Assembly: GCA_937125455.1 (NCBI GenBank)
Contig: CAKZLK010000014.1
Coordinates: forward strand, 1 to 59,187
Reading direction: 5' to 3'
DNA: 59,187 bases
Source of the DNA: an uncultured Aequorivita sp.
GTDB lineage: Bacteria; Bacteroidota; Bacteroidia; Flavobacteriales; Flavobacteriaceae
Part shown: one piece after another, positions 6,784 through 59,100 of the stretch
Layout: every line of letters starts with the position of its first letter
Numbering within the stretch: position 1 is the first letter of the stretch
The notes under the pieces: generated by a model
Database searches by the model: none
Seen by the model: the letters and a program-made list of their open reading frames with translations, nothing else
What the model was told of the DNA's origin: nothing
Made by a program: the position numbers and the translations under genes

Positions 6784-7404
6784 ATGGATGATATTGCTTT
6801 TGATAAAAATAGAATAATAGGCTTTAGCGATGCTATTTTTTCAATAGCAATGACGTTGCTTATTTTGGAAATAGCAGTACCGAATGGCGAATCTGTTAAT
6901 GAATACGGAACTTGGAAAATTCTTGAGGCGAGAATACCTAGTTTTATTGGTCTTGTTGTGAGTTTTCTTGTTACGGCAATCTATTGGGTAGCTCATTTAA
7001 GATTAATGAAATACGTTACTGATGTTGACAGTAAACTACTTTGGCTAAACATTTTTTTGTTGCTTTTTGTAGTACTGCTGCCTTTCTCAACCGCATTTTA
7101 TGTCGGGAGTTTCTTCTTGACGGGACCTTACGTTTTTTACTGCTTTAATTTAGCCGTGATTGGTTTGTTTAATTATTTGATGATTAGATACGTTGTTAAA
7201 AAGGAGCATGGAGAAACTGGACTTACAGGAGTATTGGCGAAATGGCACAAAGCACGAGCGATAAATGGTATATTAATTTGGGTGATTTCAGGGATATTGG
7301 CATTTGCTTTTCCTATATTTTCCAGATTTGTTTTTGTATTTCTCTTTTTGATTATTTTGATCATAAATAGATATTATAAAAATAAGATGAAACGCGATTT
7401 ATAG
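6784..7404 (+). CDS. TMEM175/DUF1211 family potassium channel-like membrane protein
   Basis: 206 residues with about six hydrophobic segments. The N-terminal hallmark RIIGFSDAIFSIAMTLLILEI carries the conserved R and FSD signature of the TMEM175 family. In bacterial members this helix lines a tetrameric potassium-permeable pore, with hydrophobic residues acting as filter. A His/Arg-containing WVAHLRLMKYV loop after TM3 is also typical. The gene lies 21 bp after the KAS III gene and before a terminator, so the two form one transcript. Channel function is inferred by family; bacterial members are little characterised. Confidence 0.85.
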   Translation: MDDIAFDKNRIIGFSDAIFSIAMTLLILEIAVPNGESVNEYGTWKILEARIPSFIGLVVSFLVTAIYWVAHLRLMKYVTDVDSKLLWLNIFLLLFVVLLPFSTAFYVGSFFLTGPYVFYCFNLAVIGLFNYLMIRYVVKKEHGETGLTGVLAKWHKARAINGILIWVISGILAFAFPIFSRFVFVFLFLIILIINRYYKNKMKRDL

Positions 7405-33292: not shown

Positions 33293-33469
33293 TGCGTGCG
33301 ACATTTTGACCCTTTAAAAATCCTAACAAGGCAACTTTGTCCATAGGGTCTCCGGCTAGTAATATTTTTGTAAATCTTATCAGTATAGTTTTTTTCTTGG
33401 GTGATTAATATGCGCCACGCCACAACTTTTTAAAAGACCACACCGTCCATTTTTTTTCACAAAAACTAC

Positions 33470-33565
33470 AGACGCCACGCAGCCCTCGCACGAGCACATC
33501 GCCATATTGGAAGAAGAGAATAAGGTGTTGGAAAATTAAGGTGGAAACGCTTATGGGCTAATGCT
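33470..33565 (+). pseudogene. Decayed copy of the HTH-gene 3' tail (copy 1)
   Basis: Bases 33492-33533 encode EHIAILEEENKVLE, matching ERIDALKEENKLLT at the C-terminus of the HTH protein (37538-37885). One extra base then shifts the frame into TAA at 33537, while the DNA continues with AAGGTGGAAAC as in the intact gene. Upstream bases 33471-33491 still resemble the linker. No HTH region remains. This fragment and its flanks fill the 412-bp gap 33293-33704, which has no intact gene. Confidence 0.6.
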
Positions 33566-33572
33566 AAAGTAG

Positions 33573-33603
33573 TTGGGTTTTGTTTTATATTTGGAGTTAT
33601 ACA
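33573..33603 (+). promoter_or_regulatory. Promoter after HTH-tail copy 1
   Basis: TTG at 33573-33575, a 20-bp spacer and TATATTTG at 33596-33603. It would transcribe the CPBP protease gene 100 bp downstream. An inverted repeat (GGATAAA/TTTATCC, 33632-33658) lies in the leader. Confidence 0.5.
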
Positions 33604-33704: not shown

Positions 33705-34466
33705 ATGAAAAAGGAACAAAGTAACCTAATGAAAATAGCAATTTCGTTTGCCGTTTTGTTTGTTTTGTATCATTCAGCCGAATACATGCTTTTATTTAAA
33801 AATAGTGTTGTTGGGTTTTTTGTTTTTCAGTTTCTTTTTTTTCTGTTGGCTTGGCTTTTAGGAAATTGGAATTCTAAAAATGGATTTGGTTTTTGGGGAC
33901 TGTCATTTTCTAAACTAAAGGTAAAACATCTGCTAATCGGTATATTGCTAGGTTTGGTATTGTATGGTGTTCCTTACCTAATTTCATTGTCCCTTGGAAT
34001 TGAGTTCGTGTCAAAAATACCCCCTTGGACTGATATTTTCACAGCGAGTATTCCGTTTGTTTTTGGTGTAATTTTTTCTTCATTTTCTGAAGATATTTTA
34101 ACAAGAGGAACTGTTTTCCGTCTTTTCAATAACAAAATAAAAACCGTTTGGATTATACTTATATCCGCCACAATTTATTTATTAAACCACATTTATAGAC
34201 TTAATGATGGGTTGGACACACTTTCGTACCTCTTTTTGTTAGGTGTTCTATTTATTATTCCTTTAATATTTACTAAAAGCTTATGGATTACTGGATTTAT
34301 GCACTGGTCTGGGAACGCCTTTTTTTATATTTCACATAATGTAATCCAGACTGATAGCAACTTGAACTATATAACTCCAAATCAAATTTTCGTCTTGTGG
34401 ATTATGCTATTGATACCAATTGTTTGGTATTTTTTTAGAAGATTTAAATCAAAGCTTATTTCCTGA
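33705..34466 (+). CDS. CPBP-type (CAAX-like) intramembrane protease
   Basis: 253 residues with about eight hydrophobic helices. Motif 1 is E129-D130-ILT-R134 in FSSFSEDILTRGTVFRLFNN; the family normally has EExxxR, so the second acid is Asp here. Motif 2 is in IYLLNHIYRLND (His near residue 165) and motif 3 in MHWSGNAFFY. These are the Abi/CPBP glutamic proteases, which cut within membranes. Some members provide bacteriocin immunity, others process membrane proteins. It follows a decayed HTH-tail copy and its promoter, which places it in the accessory island. Confidence 0.82.
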   Translation: MKKEQSNLMKIAISFAVLFVLYHSAEYMLLFKNSVVGFFVFQFLFFLLAWLLGNWNSKNGFGFWGLSFSKLKVKHLLIGILLGLVLYGVPYLISLSLGIEFVSKIPPWTDIFTASIPFVFGVIFSSFSEDILTRGTVFRLFNNKIKTVWIILISATIYLLNHIYRLNDGLDTLSYLFLLGVLFIIPLIFTKSLWITGFMHWSGNAFFYISHNVIQTDSNLNYITPNQIFVLWIMLLIPIVWYFFRRFKSKLIS

Positions 34467-36778: not shown

Positions 36779-37264
36779 ATGGCAACTTTAACAGAAAACA
36801 GACTCAACGAAGTCGTAGACCCAGCAGTACTCACCACTGCGCTCACCGCCCTTAACGATTTTATGGACGCCTTGCCAGAAGGCGCCCTAAACGATGACCA
36901 ACGCCGGCGCTACACCGGTATGGACGTGGACAACCGCGTGTTTGTAGAAACCGTGATAAACGTCATGCGCGGCAGTGGCGCCGAAGTGCTGCCCGCCAGC
37001 TTCCAGCTTACCAACTTGCAGAACGATTACGATCTGTTTGAGCAGTTACAGATGGTTAGCGAGCGCACCACCGCCCTGCAACGCAAGCTGGACGACCTTT
37101 CCCGCATCGCGGCCCACGAGGCATATACCTATTCGCTTGCCATCTACTCCATTTATGAGGCAATGAGCAGAGCAGGTAGCGAAGATGCCCGTGCCGGTTA
37201 TGAAATGATGCGCGACCGTTTTACGCGGACGGGCGGTTCCAGACCTCCCGAAGAAACCCTCTAG
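36779..37264 (+). CDS. Unrecognised 161-residue alpha-helical protein
   Basis: I do not recognise a named family. The protein is soluble, acidic to neutral, and looks almost entirely helical, with a coiled-coil-like stretch at about 83-112 (FEQLQMVSERTTALQRKLDDL). It ends in GGSRPPEETL. Base composition is clearly more GC-rich (for example GCC, GGC and CGC codons) than the neighbouring genes, which suggests recent acquisition or unusual selection. A TATTTTTG at 36735-36742 is a likely -7 element, with a GGGGG/CCCCC hairpin (36705-36718) just upstream. The gene has its own strong terminator and lies directly before the 22-bp repeat array. Confidence 0.8.
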   Translation: MATLTENRLNEVVDPAVLTTALTALNDFMDALPEGALNDDQRRRYTGMDVDNRVFVETVINVMRGSGAEVLPASFQLTNLQNDYDLFEQLQMVSERTTALQRKLDDLSRIAAHEAYTYSLAIYSIYEAMSRAGSEDARAGYEMMRDRFTRTGGSRPPEETL

Positions 37265-37283: not shown

Positions 37284-37309
37284 AACGGAAGGGAAACCTT
37301 CCGTTTTTT
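37284..37309 (+). terminator. Intrinsic terminator after the 161-residue gene
   Basis: A 9-bp stem (AACGGAAGG at 37284-37292 with CCTTCCGTT at 37297-37305), a GAAA loop and a T run. Confidence 0.88.
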
Positions 37310-37330
37310 CGTGCCTGTTTTGTGCCAAAA

Positions 37331-37528
37331 TGGTCATAGTTTATGACCAAAATGGACCTACTATATAACCAAAACGCTCCTATAATATGAACGAAACACA
37401 CCTATTATATGTTTAAAACACCCCTAAAATAGGAGCAAAATGACGATATATTATGACTAAAAGACCCTAATATAGGTTCAAAACAACCCTATTATAGGGG
37501 TAAAACAGCCATAACATATGATTTAAAA
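37331..37528 (+). repeat. Array of nine tandem ~22-bp imperfect palindromic repeats
   Basis: Units start at 37331, 37353, 37375, 37397, 37419, 37441, 37463, 37484 and 37506; seven are exactly 22 bp, one is 21 and one is 23. Each ends in AAA or AAAA and has an AT-rich palindromic core near CCTATTATAGG. Unit 8 contains the perfect palindrome CCCTATTATAGGG, and unit 1 contains GGTCATA/TATGACC. The array fills the gap between a terminator and the start of the HTH gene at 37538. The 22-bp period, two helical turns, puts all cores on one face of the DNA, as in an operator or iteron array. The HTH protein is the obvious candidate binder, by inference. Confidence 0.85.
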
Positions 37529-37537
37529 ACCCAAAAA

Positions 37538-37885
37538 ATGAAGACTACGAACCCGCCGTTGCCGCATATTGGGAATATGTTGCGCACCCACATTAAAAAG
37601 CACCGATTGTTTAGAAGCGTACTTGCCCGTATGTTGGGCAGGGATTATTCCACAGTGCATAAATATGAAAAAAAGGAAAGCATGCAATGCAAATTGCTTT
37701 GGGAACTCTCCCTAGCCATAAAGCATAACTTTTTTGCAGACCTCGCCGCCCAGCTGCCGCCAGACTTTACCACCAACGCCCCAGACCCAACCCTGTCTTT
37801 GCAGGAGCGCATTGACGCGCTGAAGGAGGAGAATAAGTTGTTGACAACTAAGGTGGAAACCTTGATGGCGGTGGTGCAGAAATAG
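37538..37885 (+). CDS. Small helix-turn-helix protein with C-terminal coiled coil
   Basis: 115 residues. Residues 10-60 resemble a lambda-repressor-type HTH (IGNMLRTHIKKHRLFRSVLARMLGRDYSTVHKYEKK), followed by LLWELSLAIKHNFFADLAAQLP, a pattern I associate with small flavobacterial HTH proteins. Residues 85-115 form a leucine-zipper-like coil (LQERIDALKEENKLLTTKVETLMAVV), probably for dimerisation. It is preceded by the 22-bp repeat array, which it may bind and so regulate itself. Its 3' tail recurs as fragments at 33470 and 38806. It may be a regulator or a replication/partition-like protein; the sequence does not decide. Confidence 0.8.
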   Translation: MKTTNPPLPHIGNMLRTHIKKHRLFRSVLARMLGRDYSTVHKYEKKESMQCKLLWELSLAIKHNFFADLAAQLPPDFTTNAPDPTLSLQERIDALKEENKLLTTKVETLMAVVQK

Positions 37886-37896
37886 AGGTATATTTG
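37862..37896 (+). promoter_or_regulatory. Promoter inside the HTH-gene tail, reading into the HEPN gene
   Basis: TTG at 37862-37864, a 24-bp spacer (one longer than usual) and TATATTTG at 37889-37896, 69 bp before the HEPN start codon. The TTG lies in the last codons of the HTH gene. Confidence 0.45.
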
Positions 37897-37964: not shown

Positions 37965-38771
37965 ATGAAATCAAATACAACTGAAAACGAGGACACTAAA
38001 ATCATGAAACATATTAAGCGAAAATTTGTGCATGAATATAAAATGAATGACGATGCATATCAATTTGCTCTTAAACAATTGCCCAAATTTCCAACTAATG
38101 CATTTTCTATTCCTAAAGAAAAAGTTGCACACTTGATTACAACTGATAAAACATTTATTCAATGCTTCACGTACAAAATAAATGGAACTCCTATTCCAAT
38201 ACCAGAGCCAAATCCAGTAGTAATTTATTTTTCGAATGCTCAAGGTTTTTTGTTTTCTATAGAAGAATTCCGGATAAATCTTTTTGAAGAAATTAAGAAA
38301 CTCCCATATGAAATTGGTGAAGTCCAAAACCTGATGTTTGGTTTTTACAGTGTAGTAACAAGCTTTGTCAGTTCTCTATCCAATTCAATTGAAGCATTCG
38401 TAAATTCAAAAATTCCAAAAGATCTCGTTATTGATAATCCAAGATGGAAAAAGAGAAAAAGAAAAATGAATAAATATGAAATCTTACGTCATTTAAGTCT
38501 TGAAGAAAAAATAAAGTATCCTCTTGCTCAAGTAATGGGCAAAAATTTTATGAGCCAAAAAGGATATACAGAAATTAAAAAACTCGTTGAACTACGGAAT
38601 GATATTACACATGCCAAATCAGATATAGAACATAATATAAACTACTATCAAAAATTGTATGTAGATACATTAGATTTCGATTATATCTCCACAATTGAAG
38701 CTGCTAAATCTTTAATTAATTTTTACGAACCAAATTTAATTGAACCTTGTAATTGTGGCCAAAAACATTAA
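37965..38771 (+). CDS. HEPN-domain protein, putative ribonuclease
   Basis: 268 residues. The N-terminal 110 residues are mixed alpha/beta and unrecognised. Residues about 120-255 are helical and carry LVELRNDITHAKSD, where R211 and H216 form the Rx4H motif of catalytic HEPN RNases. A long helix rich in Ser/Phe (FGFYSVVTSFVSSLSNSIEAFVN) precedes it, as in other HEPN bundles. The end CNCGQKH could bind metal. HEPN proteins are common toxins and effectors of defence systems. The gene is AT-rich, has its own promoter in the HTH tail and is bracketed by 38-bp direct repeats. RNase activity is inferred. Confidence 0.65.
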   Translation: MKSNTTENEDTKIMKHIKRKFVHEYKMNDDAYQFALKQLPKFPTNAFSIPKEKVAHLITTDKTFIQCFTYKINGTPIPIPEPNPVVIYFSNAQGFLFSIEEFRINLFEEIKKLPYEIGEVQNLMFGFYSVVTSFVSSLSNSIEAFVNSKIPKDLVIDNPRWKKRKRKMNKYEILRHLSLEEKIKYPLAQVMGKNFMSQKGYTEIKKLVELRNDITHAKSDIEHNINYYQKLYVDTLDFDYISTIEAAKSLINFYEPNLIEPCNCGQKH

Positions 38772-38805
38772 TTACTGCTTGTTAATAAAAAAAACCAACT
38801 TGTGG

Positions 38806-38889
38806 GAGCGTATTGCTGTGCTAGAGAAGGAGAATAAGGTGTTGACAACTAAGGTGGAAACCTTGATGGCGGTGGTGGGGAAAGGGTAA
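38806..38889 (+). pseudogene. Truncated copy of the HTH-gene 3' tail (copy 3)
   Basis: An open stretch encodes ERIAVLEKENKVLTTKVETL and ends MAVVGKG with a stop at 38887, nearly identical to the last 28 codons of the HTH gene. Bases 38840-38877 are identical to 37839-37876 (38 of 38). The HTH domain is absent and no start codon is present, so this is a fragment, not a gene. Confidence 0.8.
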
Positions 38890-38894
38890 ATTTG
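38863..38894 (+). promoter_or_regulatory. Promoter at HTH-tail copy 3
   Basis: TTG at 38863-38865, a 21-bp spacer and TAAATTTG at 38887-38894. It would drive the STAS-GHKL gene starting at 38977. Confidence 0.6.
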
Positions 38895-38976
38895 TATATT
38901 AGCAGAGACTTGCGAAATATACTACATGTTGATACATACTAGTTGGGCATAATTTAAAAACAAACTGAAATAAGAA

Positions 38977-40239
38977 TTGAGTTTTTTTAGAACTTCATAT
39001 TACAATAAGTCGAATTCCACAATATTTGTTGGTGCTAAAGCAAATTCATATAACATAAAGGATTTTGATTCTGCAGTCGGCAAATTCATTGAATCTGGTG
39101 AAAAACACTTGACTTTAAATCTAGAAAGTGTTCATCGCGCTTACCCAAGCGGAATATTACCAATGATTGTGACCATTGATAGATTACGGCTATTTGGAAA
39201 AACAATCTATGTAAAATTACCTTCAAATAGTAATACAAGAAAGCTTTTTCGTAGTGTAAATTGGGCTCACTATCTAGCTCCAGAGCAATTTGAGAAATCT
39301 GAATCTGTACATGATAGACATTTAGTTACACGTAATTTTGACGATGCAAATAATCAAAAATTAATTGTTGATGACTTTATGGATGTTATTTTAAGAAATA
39401 TGCAAGTTCCTCTTGATATTATAAGTGGTTTGGAATGGTCAATTAATGAAATCACTGATAATGTTTTAAACCATTCAAAATCAAAGGTAGGCGGTTACAT
39501 ACAAGCAAGCACATATCCGAAAAATAATTTGATAGTTTTTGCAATTGTTGATGGAGGAATTGGAATTTTAAAGTCTATGCAAGAAGGATTTCCAAATTTG
39601 AGAAAGGATTTGGATGCTATCGGTGAAGCTATTAAAGCTGGTGTTACAAGAAATCCAAAATTTGGGCAAGGAAATGGACTTGCTGGTACTTTAAGGGTTA
39701 CTACAATGACAGGCGGTTCGTTTGACATAACAAGTGGTACCGGAAGGTTGATAGTAACTCCGAATGAAACGAAGAGAAAAATGTTAGGTCTGGGAAAGTT
39801 TAAAGGAACTATTATCAATGGACAGGTTAAAATTACTGATGATTTTTCAATTATTAAAGCCCTTGATTTTGGTAAAGGTACTGACTATACTCCTTCAAAT
39901 ATAATTGAAACACAATATGAAAAGGAAGATGAAGATTGTTTGGTACTTAAAATGAGTAATGAGAGTACTGGATTTGGCACTAGGCGTTCTGGCTATCAGA
40001 TAAGAACCAAAATTTTTAATTTACTCAATTCAAAAAAGGACTATCCTCTAGTAATTGATTGGTCTGGAATTCCAATTATATCAAGTAGTTTTGCTGATGA
40101 GGTTATCGGAAAACTTTTTTTAAAGTTAGGAGCCATATCTTTTTCAGCCAGAATTCGAAATATCAGTATGGAGGAAATCGTTAGGAACCTTTTAGATAAA
40201 GCAGTAGCACAAAGATTAACTCAAGCTGCAGATGAATAA
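38977..40239 (+). CDS. STAS-GHKL ATPase-STAS (DUF4325) switch protein
   Basis: 420 residues starting at TTG: TAA stands in frame at 38971 and the next Met is residue 63. Residues 10-110 look like a STAS-type domain (HLTLNLESVHRAYPSGILPMI). Residues 125-265 are a GHKL ATPase: N box EWSINEITDNVLNHS (E158, N162), DGGIG at 192-196 and GQGNGL at 230-235. Residues about 322-410 are a DUF4325 STAS-like domain (GFGTRRSGYQIRTKIF, VIDWSGIPIISSSFADE). Kinase-like ATPase and STAS substrate thus sit in one chain, like a fused SpoIIAB/SpoIIAA partner switch. It follows the HEPN gene and HTH-tail copy 3. A role in a HEPN-based defence cassette is inference. Confidence 0.8.
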   Translation: MSFFRTSYYNKSNSTIFVGAKANSYNIKDFDSAVGKFIESGEKHLTLNLESVHRAYPSGILPMIVTIDRLRLFGKTIYVKLPSNSNTRKLFRSVNWAHYLAPEQFEKSESVHDRHLVTRNFDDANNQKLIVDDFMDVILRNMQVPLDIISGLEWSINEITDNVLNHSKSKVGGYIQASTYPKNNLIVFAIVDGGIGILKSMQEGFPNLRKDLDAIGEAIKAGVTRNPKFGQGNGLAGTLRVTTMTGGSFDITSGTGRLIVTPNETKRKMLGLGKFKGTIINGQVKITDDFSIIKALDFGKGTDYTPSNIIETQYEKEDEDCLVLKMSNESTGFGTRRSGYQIRTKIFNLLNSKKDYPLVIDWSGIPIISSSFADEVIGKLFLKLGAISFSARIRNISMEEIVRNLLDKAVAQRLTQAADE

Positions 40240-40330
40240 AACTATGCCCCCGGCTACCGCGAGCCTACCGCTCGTGCACAACTAAAAAACTTCTCACCAC
40301 TCACCACTCACTACTCACGTTCTATTTCAC

Positions 40331-56100: not shown

Positions 56101-59100
56101 CGGCGCAGTTGTAACGTATACAGTTGCTTCACCTTCGGGTTGTGGTGGTTCTGGGCCTTTAGCCAATGGAATTGCTACTTTGGAATTGGTTTCATCAGCA
56201 GGAGGAAGTAATTACAGAGCAGCAGTAAGTTATAATCCTTCAGCAGACAGATACTATAGTGTAAATGGAGGATCTGCTGGTTATCCAGTTGATTGTTTTG
56301 ATGGTACCACTGGAGCTATTATTAGCAGTATTGCAAGTGGTTTTGATTATAGAGGTGCTTGGTGGAATCCGAATTTGAATCAATCTGAAGGGAATGGTTT
56401 TGGTGCAGGAGGTTTGGTAATTACAGATTTGGCAGGTGACTGCCCTGCTGGAACTATAACATCAATTTTTCCTGCCAATCAGCCAGATGTTCATTCAGAG
56501 GGTGATTATGATTATGATAATAATGAAGTAGTTTATTATTTCACTGGAAATATCACACAAGTTGATAGGGCAACAGGCACAACAAGTGCAGTCTTGCCTC
56601 TTTCTAATATACCTGCAGGATCTTCCTATATGGGACGATGTATTGGTTATACTGGCGTGCCAGGTTTTGAGTACGCATTGTATGACAATACCACACTATC
56701 TGTTCATTTATATGATCGGGCAACGGGAGCCTATGCTGCCACAACTACAATTGGAATAACTCCTACTATCTCTGATAGTGGTTTTAACTATGAAAATGAC
56801 CAAGCGTGGATATATGCAAACAATAGATGGAACGGCTTTACCATTTTTGGTGCAGCAAGCGGAACCATCACTCAAACAGCAGGTCTTGCCAGTGGTTATA
56901 CCTTCCCAGTAGGAACAACTACAAATACTTTTGAGTATGACGATGGTATAAACCCAGTACAAACCTGTTCTTTTGATGTAACTATTAATGATGCTGAAGC
57001 TCCAGTAATTACTTGCCCTGGAGACATTACAGTAAGTAATGACCCAGGAGTTTGTGGTGCTGTTATTAATTATACTGTTACTGCAACAGATAATTGTAGT
57101 TCAGGAGGTCCTGGATCACAAACCTTTTCATATACTGGCGCAATTGATTCATTTGTAGTTCCAGCCGGTGTTACCGATATTACAATTCAAGCTTTCGGGG
57201 CACAAGGTGGTGGAAGTAATGGAGGCGCCGGTGGCCTAGGAGCTTCCATTTCAGGAGATTTTAGTGTAACTCCAGGTGAAACTTTAACTGTTGTTGTAGG
57301 TCAACAAGGCCAATTACAGATTGGCGGTAATGCACAAAATAGCTCTGGTGGCGGAGGCGGAAGTTTTGTTTACAATGCTTCGGACGTTCTCTTTGTTGCT
57401 GCTGGTGGTGGTGGTGGAAAATGTAATTATACAGGTTCACCACCACTACACCCAGAAGCTGCAGGTCAAGCAGGGACCTCTGGAGGAGCATCTTCAGACG
57501 GTAACGCTGGTGGAACAGCTGGAAATGCTGGAAATGAGGGAACTTGGAGTGGTTCTCCTGATGCTGGAGGTGGAGCAGGATGGCTTTCAGTGAGTGGAGG
57601 GCCTTACGGAGGATATAATGCGCCTACTTGGGCTGGAGGTGCTCCGTTTTGCGGCGGTGGCGGTGGCGGTTGTGGCGGCTTTGGCGGCTTCGGCGGCGGC
57701 GGCGGCGGCGGCAACCATTATGGCGGCGGTGGCGGCGGTGGCGGCTACTCTGGTGGCGGCGGCGGAACAGATCCAACCCATGGTGGTGGTGGTGGCTCCT
57801 TTAATGGAGGAACCAATCCTGTAAATAATAGTGGAGTTCGTACTGGGGATGGTGAAGTTACCATTACTTGGAACGCAACATTGGTACCTAACCAAACTGC
57901 TGGTCTTCCTTCAGGAAGCACTTTCCCTGTGGGAACCACAACAAATACGTTTGTTGTAACCGATGCATCAGGAAACTCAGACACGTGTACATTTACTGTA
58001 ACCGTAAACGATACCGAACCCCCTGTGGCGGTTTGCCAAAACGCAACGGTTCAGTTGGATGCCAATGGAAATGGATCAATAACTGCTGCCGATGTTGATG
58101 GTGGTAGCACTGACGTCTGCGGAATTGCTTCTTTAAGCGTTTCTCCAAGTAGTTTCACTTGTGCAGATGTCGGTACAAACAATGTTGTCCTGACTGTAAC
58201 CGATGTTAATGGTAATTCAAGTACTTGTACTGCAGTTGTAACTGTGCAAGATAATGTTGCTCCTACAGCAGTTTGCCAAAACATAACAGTTCAATTGGAT
58301 GCTACTGGAAACGTCTCAATTACTGCTGGTCAAGTTGATGGTGGTAGCACCGATGCTTGTGGAATTGCAAGTACTTCAATTGACAATACAGATTTCACTT
58401 GTGCAGACATTGGCCCGAATAACGTAACCTTAACGGTAACTGATGTAAACGGAAATACAAGCACTTGCGTAGCTGTAGTTACTGTAGAAGATGACCTTCC
58501 GCCAATTATAGCTTGCCCTGCAGACATAACTGTAAATACAGATGCGGGAATCTGTAGCGCAATAGTGACTTTCCCAATGCCACTAGTGTTGGATAATTGT
58601 AGTGCAACAGCTACCCAAACAGGTGGACTTACAAGTGGAAGTGCATTTCCGGTAGGAGTGAACACTGTAGCGTTTACCGCAACCGATCAAAGTGGTAATA
58701 CGGCAGTTTGTAGCTTTACCATTACGGTAGTTGATAATGAAGCACCAACTATGGTTTGTCAAAACATCACCATCCAATTGGATGCATTTGGCAATGCAGC
58801 TATCACAGTCGCTGATGTGGATGGAGGTTCTACGGATAACTGTGGAATTGCAAGCGCCTCTGTTAGTCCAAGTACTTTTGACTGTAGTGACGTAGGTGAT
58901 AATCCAGTAGTACTTACGGTTACCGATGTTCATGGAAACTCCAACACCTGTACGGCAATCGTAACAGTTCAGGACGTGACTAATCCCCTTGCAGTTTGCC
59001 AAAACATTACTGTTGAATTGGATCCAGTAACTGGAATTATAACTATTGCAGGAGCAGATGTTGACGGTGGAAGTACGGATGCCTGTGGCATCGCGAGCTA

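Follow-up and report, generated by a model that had tools for sequence, protein, structure and literature searches.

What does an array of phased palindromic repeats do in front of a small HTH gene, and which protein reads it? The question is raised by a locus of an uncultured Aequorivita sp., on a contig of 59,187 nucleotides that was analysed over its whole length and is referred to here as the window. Loci (L###) and genomes (G###) are cited by the labels of our analysis, and the genome to which the window belongs is called the own genome. We consider it probable that the array serves as a multi-site operator for the product of the next gene downstream, a protein that would act as a locus-specific regulator of an integron-like cassette platform. 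The features of the locus are listed below.

33469..33599, + strand: older HTH 3′ remnant, followed by an attI-like stretch and cargo at 33705-34466 (CAAX-protease-like, Pfam)
36779..37264, + strand: c1, an ORF for a 161-aa all-helical protein, a frequent upstream partner of HTH-family genes
37284..37309, + strand: terminator-like hairpin with a T run between c1 and the array, read in the sequence, with a similar layout in relatives
37318..37535, no strand assigned: array of ten dyad units of 22 bp (once 21), the first unit weak (lag, chain-fit, dyad and matrix tests)
37538..37885, + strand: gene of the 115-aa XRE-fold DNA-binding protein with C-terminal helix 86-114 (AlphaFold2, Foldseek, alignment)
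37889..37896, + strand: TATATTTG, a form of the presumed Bacteroidetes -7 box directly after the HTH stop, candidate cassette promoter
37965..38771, + strand: cargo gene, located after the HTH gene and before an HTH 3′ remnant, for a 268-aa protein weakly similar to HEPN
38797..38889, + strand: HTH-gene remnant, the last 29 aligned codons (to 38883) and the stop
38890..38942, + strand: attI-like region ending in CTAG|TTGGGC, with the same position and form in relatives, by reading
38943..40249, + strand: gene cassette with start TTGGGCATA and end TATGCCC, read by eye

The array and the protein encoded behind it

The region 37325-37535 matched itself at 123 of 189 positions (0.651) at a lag of 22 bp and at a fraction of 0.581 at a lag of 44; at the remaining lags examined (5 to 59) the fraction was 0.18-0.42. 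The best lag in the 230 bp before the ATG was 22 (z = 11.7), which none of 200 dinucleotide shuffles matched when the maximum over lags 12-60 was taken, and Tandem Repeats Finder returned three period-22 rows at the array. Chain fitting placed ten units with starts from 37318 to 37515, spaced by 22 bp eight times and by 21 bp once, the first unit being a poor match. The sequence-only reading had counted nine 22-bp units, with one spacing of 21 and one of 23. Its 22-bp period stood, the count has to be raised to ten, and the spacing of 23 arose from the use of AAAA as the unit mark. That reading had also described the units as imperfect palindromes, and with a pairing of 0.64 the dyad symmetry of the array indeed surpassed that of every one of the 60 column-permuted controls, giving p = 0.016, the lowest attainable value.

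The units are divergent in sequence and hold their register. A matrix built from the array picked out its ten units as the ten best matches on the + strand of the window; the - strand had one site, near 7347, whose score of 17.9 exceeded those of the two weakest units. The 3.73-Mb own genome (63 contigs) yielded no further array of this kind, and single array-type sites elsewhere in it occurred at the control level (29 and 31 vs 33 and 32). Its uniqueness in the own genome fits the expectation for a local operator. We also observed a GGC/GCG repeat run with a 33-bp higher period at 57651-57795 of the window (Tandem Repeats Finder).

The AlphaFold2 model of the 115-aa protein (pLDDT 79.6) contains five helices up to residue 71 and a single helix at 86-114, which likely forms a coiled coil. 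Its Foldseek neighbours included the P22 C2 repressor, HipB and restriction-modification (R-M) controller proteins, C.Esp1396I and C.AhdI among them, with a best E of 7.9e-3 and a probability of 1.00. The predicted structure thus has the lambda-repressor-like (XRE) fold; no Pfam HTH model reached its cut-off for this protein. In an alignment of 19 relatives, the C-terminal half was conserved far above the DNA-binding half.

Geometry and sequence of the arrays in relatives

In a sample of 299 genomes from its family, the HTH protein occurred in 4, the named records being Aequorivita, Halomarinibacterium and one MAG classified to family; in its genus it was present in 18 of 28 genomes, some with remnants only. 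In the order, 29 of 395 genomes gave matches, the weakest of which were treated as an outgroup. We kept 52 loci, comprising 39 non-redundant members and 13 outgroup HTH genes, after excluding proteins shorter than 90 aa, upstream regions that were shorter than 200 bp or contained long runs of N, and proteins at least 92% identical to a kept one. L089, L091, L092, L100, L102, L103, L104 and L107 were dropped for want of a usable ATG. The outgroup consists of the weak matches L119-L132, separated manually; one of these, L126, was not among the 52 kept. L017 and L019 were counted as HTH loci; c1 was not found just upstream there.

A conserved period upstream of the homologues had been named in advance as the test of the array, and it was found: within the 230 bp that precede the start, 38 of the 39 members had their strongest lag at 21, 22, 42, 43 or 44 (p ≤ 0.03; 200 shuffles, maximum over lags 12-60). 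The exception, L106, had a lag of 20 (p 0.67) and no significant period in the 230 bp tested. Among the 13 outgroup HTH genes, one had a significant lag, which was 45. Over the 39 arrays, 267 of the 353 spacings were 21 bp, 76 were 22 bp and 10 were 20 bp, with 6-13 units per array (median 10; 300 bp examined). The fixed quantity is two helix turns, and the 22 bp of the window is its upper end. The proposal that the spacing is under selection is therefore borne out by a period kept upstream of relatives, although the usual period is 21 and not 22. Dyad symmetry was significant in 10 of the 39 HTH arrays, which counts against the operator reading. A coding heptad repeat (21 nt, or seven codons) was rejected, since spacings of 20, 21 and 22 are mixed, with 22 in the window, and the frame is not kept.

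The sequence of the repeats differs at nearly every locus. We measured the likeness of arrays by local matrix comparison against column-permuted arrays, with a 99% threshold of 0.7824. Locus pairs with DNA-binding halves at least 60% identical had alike arrays in 16 of 24 cases, compared with 28 of 717 cases below 60% identity, where about 7 were expected from the threshold; these pairs are not independent. The eight pairs with similar HTH domains and unlike arrays count against the operator reading, and three of them involve the window. Its array resembled that of L016 (0.810) but not those of L032, L017 and L019, and the L016, L032 and L017 proteins are all 78-83% identical to that of the window in the DNA-binding half. 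Reading of the alignment showed that, at the start of the stretch around residues 34-42, a candidate for the recognition helix, L016 has GRDY in common with the window, where L032 and L017 have GKPD.

Mantel tests, whose locus pairs are likewise not independent, associated the array with the HTH domain at r 0.17 (p 0.003), or 0.20 (p 0.001) when the C-terminal half was controlled for. For the C-terminal half itself, the values were -0.02 (p 0.58) over all 39 loci and 0.17 (p 0.08) among the 21 loci from the genus. Moreover, L043 and L033 are homologous through c1, differ in the array and the DNA-binding half, and are homologous again from the HTH 3′ half; the same pattern was repeated in L034 and L028. 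Judged from these comparisons, the array and the DNA-binding half are exchanged as a block. In our view, this block swap is the strongest sign that the array is read by the downstream protein.

The main alternative is that the array belongs to c1. On this view the array, past the c1 terminator, would be bound by c1 or one of its partners and serve an architectural, anchoring or targeting purpose; the HTH gene would have come to lie beside it later and taken it over. In the window, c1 matched no Pfam family at E up to 1, and PDB sequence and fold searches with it gave no match of weight, to DNA-binding or other proteins, although a relation to known folds may exist. In the phylum sample, c1 was present in 31 of 395 genomes and 22 of 171 genera. 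A homologue lay within 1.5 kb upstream at 24 of the 39 HTH loci. At the other 15, c1 was not found in that distance and the arrays are still present, which argues against ownership by c1.

A point in favour of c1 comes from its copies that have no HTH gene of this family within about 1.5 kb. An HTH gene of the window family was found at none of 44 such loci of 2.6-3.5 kb. Arrays with a period of 21-22 or 42-43 bp nevertheless followed the c1 terminator at 19 of 23 c1-only loci, mostly from a second family of the order, and similar arrays occurred at about 11 of 21 further c1 loci from the phylum sample, a count in which L191 (a short simple repeat) was left out and L195 (from the window's own family) and L204 are weak. 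Dyad symmetry was significant in 17 of 27 c1-only arrays. By reading, these arrays differ between the c1 copies of one genome and from the single HTH-gene array of that genome. They are read either by other proteins or by c1; a downstream-HTH operator does not explain them, and they keep the c1 alternative alive. Cassettes showed no general association with c1-only arrays (7 of 23 loci vs 7.8 in controls); L172 has perfect 10-base cassette ends. Among other observations, arrays of about ten 21-bp units, with an HTH gene of the window family absent, lie downstream of many of the c1-type genes across Bacteroidota (L157-L181 and L190-L210), the c1-only stretches examined in the 23-locus set ranged in G+C from 0.28 to 0.52 between loci, and L199 carries two c1-type genes in tandem.

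At the 24 loci with c1, the correlation of array likeness was 0.52 with c1 and lower, 0.31, with the HTH domain. Fixing the HTH halves left the c1 correlation at 0.50, compared with 0.25 for HTH when c1 was fixed; the pairs are again not independent. The discordant pairs point the other way. Where c1 was alike (at least 0.6) and HTH unlike (below 0.45), none of 13 pairs had alike arrays, one reaching 0.77. Where HTH was alike and c1 unlike, two of three pairs had alike arrays and the third, at 0.782, fell just below 0.7824. On balance, we regard ownership of the array by c1 as unlikely.

Less likely still is an RNA or single-stranded DNA element, in which the array would be transcribed or extruded and its palindromes would act as hairpins. 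The window array folds well as RNA (z -4.13), and 15 of the 39 arrays, taken with their last eight units each and tested with mononucleotide shuffles, had a mean fold z of -4.9 vs 0.06 in column-permuted controls. However, dyad DNA sites would give the same folding signal, the fold z was above -2 in 5 of the 15 arrays, within-unit compensation amounted to a mean excess of only 0.025, and the array sequence goes with the HTH domain. We also rejected within-unit compensatory change as a proof of hairpins: mean excesses were 0.025 and 0.024, with p < 0.05 in 10 of 39 and 7 of 27 arrays, the centre having been chosen from the same data.

Iteron plasmid origins and parC-type centromeres are arrays of phased short repeats, and contiguous phased repeats beside a small HTH protein recall them. 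The sequence-only reading had suggested a site of plasmid replication or partition. We abandon that suggestion, for a plasmid and for an integrated element alike, as very improbable. The HTH protein had no match among 72,556 plasmid and 50,697 phage records, and c1 had none among the plasmid records. The locus is flanked by a PAP2 gene and uvrB, the latter also found beside the homologues L032 and L027, and no rep or par gene was identified among the 11 window proteins scanned with Pfam. Three to six copies of the HTH protein, most of them differing, occur in each of three other genomes (six matches in G233, four in G254 and three in G027). A slippage-made satellite devoid of function, which tandem units that differ between loci might suggest, is just as improbable, as the two-turn period is the same in unlike sequences and is held in the window by divergent units.

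The cassette platform downstream of the HTH gene

At L042 and L043, which belong to one genome, c1, the array, the HTH gene and about 84 bp past the HTH stop are 98% alike, and different cargo follows. Like integron cassettes, the cargo opens with a G|TTRRRY-like sequence and closes with a sequence complementary to that opening. This rule applied at the HTH 3′ end in 18 of 24 loci, compared with a cross-locus control mean of 4.25 and a maximum of 8 in 40 permutations; some of the 18 look weak, including the window's own HTH stop, L035 and L037. The 24 loci had to have some downstream sequence and included truncated HTH genes, with redundancy unfiltered; L016 and L021, being too short, and loci from L045 on were left out. 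Complementary cassette ends of the attC type thus lie next to attI, as in canonical integrons. As a side observation, the cargo of L034, at +1008 to +3835 from the HTH reference point, looks by reading like a two-gene set encoding a 362-aa protein and a 564-aa ATPase-like protein.

The order in the window is HTH gene, HEPN-like gene, HTH 3′ remnant with a clear attI-like site, HATPase/DUF4325 cassette and uvrB. The attI directly at the HTH stop is degenerate, by reading; the clear one, at 38890-38942, lies behind the remnant at 38797-38889, which is 72% identical to the matching codons of 37538-37885. The HEPN-like gene at 37965-38771 matched Pfam HEPN_MAE_28990 at E 3.5e-4, below the cut-off, and REase_II weakly (E 0.0011). 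The cassette at 38943-40249 has ends complementary over 7 bases, without the AAC of the full core, and encodes a 420-aa HATPase/DUF4325 protein (38977-40239). Part of the PADLOC profile DrmA was matched by this protein (E 2.8e-34). The older remnant at 33469-33599 is 81% identical to the HTH 3′ end of L032. Two HTH 3′ remnants of the same family thus stand beside the intact gene, both with an attI-like stretch and cargo behind them, and the platform was probably duplicated or recombined at this site before. Similar HTH remnants were observed at L018, L027 and in several genomes of the genus.

The motif TAnnTTTG, which we take to be the Bacteroidetes -7 promoter box, occurred within 45 bp after the HTH stop at 21 of 39 loci vs a shuffled mean of 1.29, the loci being related and so not independent. 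It is a candidate promoter for the cassettes. In the 80 bp before the HTH ATG, the motif was not enriched (1 of 39 loci vs 1.39 in shuffles), and the promoter that the protein would control was thus not located.

The genus has recombinase genes with cassettes behind them, and recombinases were found in several arrangements. In the own genome, L066 (contig C61, 9784-15823) comprises a recombinase gene, a divergent small cysteine-rich gene and seven downstream ORFs on the recombinase strand, five of which have complementary ends, by reading. On this arrangement, L066 is a non-canonical integron. Over 27 bases, the attI beside the recombinase in G027 matches exactly the region that follows the HTH genes L042 and L043 of that same genome, and over a second stretch almost exactly. 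An attI also lies beside recombinase genes in G254 and L020; no recombinase adjoins the window platform. L020 has the order c1, array, HTH, recombinase, attI, cassette start, contig end; at L134 a convergent recombinase abuts the HTH gene, and at L152 a divergent one lies upstream of c1. A nearby recombinase was seen only at L020/L083, L134 and L152 among the 24 loci examined. The three candidate recombinases scored 205.4, 192.4 and 182.0 bits with the IntI model TIGR02249, whose cut-off is 265 bits, and none of four genomes held a protein above it; the recombinases tested are thus not IntI by the canonical measure. Those of G000, G254 and G027 are without about 42 residues between model positions 180 and 240, presumably the site of the IntI additional domain.

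From these features we infer a mechanism in which XRE-type dimers would bind the dyad units side by side on one DNA face, with a period of two turns, probably held together through the C-terminal helix. The proposal of a phased dyad array for a dimeric HTH protein is supported by the dyads and by the period conserved at 38 of 39 loci. The dimers would control their own promoter, by repression or activation. As the array abuts the start codon, autoregulation, already suggested by the sequence-only reading, is likely and is the likeliest role. The many sites and divergent units suggest graded, cooperative occupancy. The HTH gene ends at the attI-like site where cassettes would insert, followed in one species by a recombinase gene, and via this attI and the downstream promoter the protein may set the expression of the cassettes and, where present, of the recombinase.

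Relation to known systems

The R-M controller (C) proteins C.Esp1396I, C.AhdI and C.Csp231I are likewise small XRE-fold proteins that regulate their own system via adjacent operators. The part of the C.Csp231I article available to us gives a recognition sequence of 21 bp (PMC4321490), and that of the C.Esp1396I article describes three operator sequences (PMC3758141). C proteins use few operator sites, whereas about ten contiguous units and an extra C-terminal helix are found here. We identified no R-M gene pair beside the window gene and no methyltransferase among the window neighbours scanned; the cargo of relatives was covered by reading only.

P22 C2-type phage repressors are alike in fold and in dyad operators, and the locus-specific specificity resembles phage immunity. 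They differ from the present system in its ten-unit array; in addition, the HTH protein had no match in phage records, and the Pfam scan of 11 window proteins revealed no phage gene. Iteron origins and parC sites differ in turn from a locus with no replication or partition gene among those 11 proteins and no plasmid match.

Sedentary chromosomal integrons share with these loci the G|TTRRRY-like cassette starts, the complementary ends, the attI-like site, a candidate promoter before attI and tyrosine recombinases in the genome. Unlike in such integrons, the recombinases here are below the IntI cut-off and rarely close by, attI follows a regulator gene equipped with a putative operator array, and there are several platforms per genome. 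In Bacteroidetes proper, one complete integron is reported in the part of PMC9024848 available to us, that of Salinibacter ruber. A literature search covering few subscription journals and no bioRxiv preprints found no described array-HTH platform. The change of the array from locus to locus, its co-change with the HTH domain, the attI with its cassettes and the c1-linked arrays all need relatives to be seen and therefore lay outside a single-sequence view.

What we describe would be a known protein fold with an operator array at a non-canonical integron platform; the phylum-wide class of arrays may be new in kind. More tentatively, we put forward as possible, though doubtful, a Bacteroidota-wide class of elements with about ten dyad sites two turns apart beyond a c1-type terminator, in which the geometry would be fixed, the sequence free, and locus-specific reader proteins exchanged with the array. 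In Aequorivita, each element with its reader protein would label a secondary attI platform on which a non-canonical integrase acts in trans, giving several separately addressed cassette sites per genome.

If the operator reading is true, these loci would offer a natural set of mutually insulated regulator-operator pairs, fixed in geometry and free in sequence, and a direct system for studying the co-change of DNA-binding specificity and its sites. There would be several attI platforms per genome, with recombinases below the usual integron-integrase cut-off. A regulator would then stand between the cell and cassette capture in a phylum for which complete integrons are rarely reported, as far as the available part of PMC9024848 shows.
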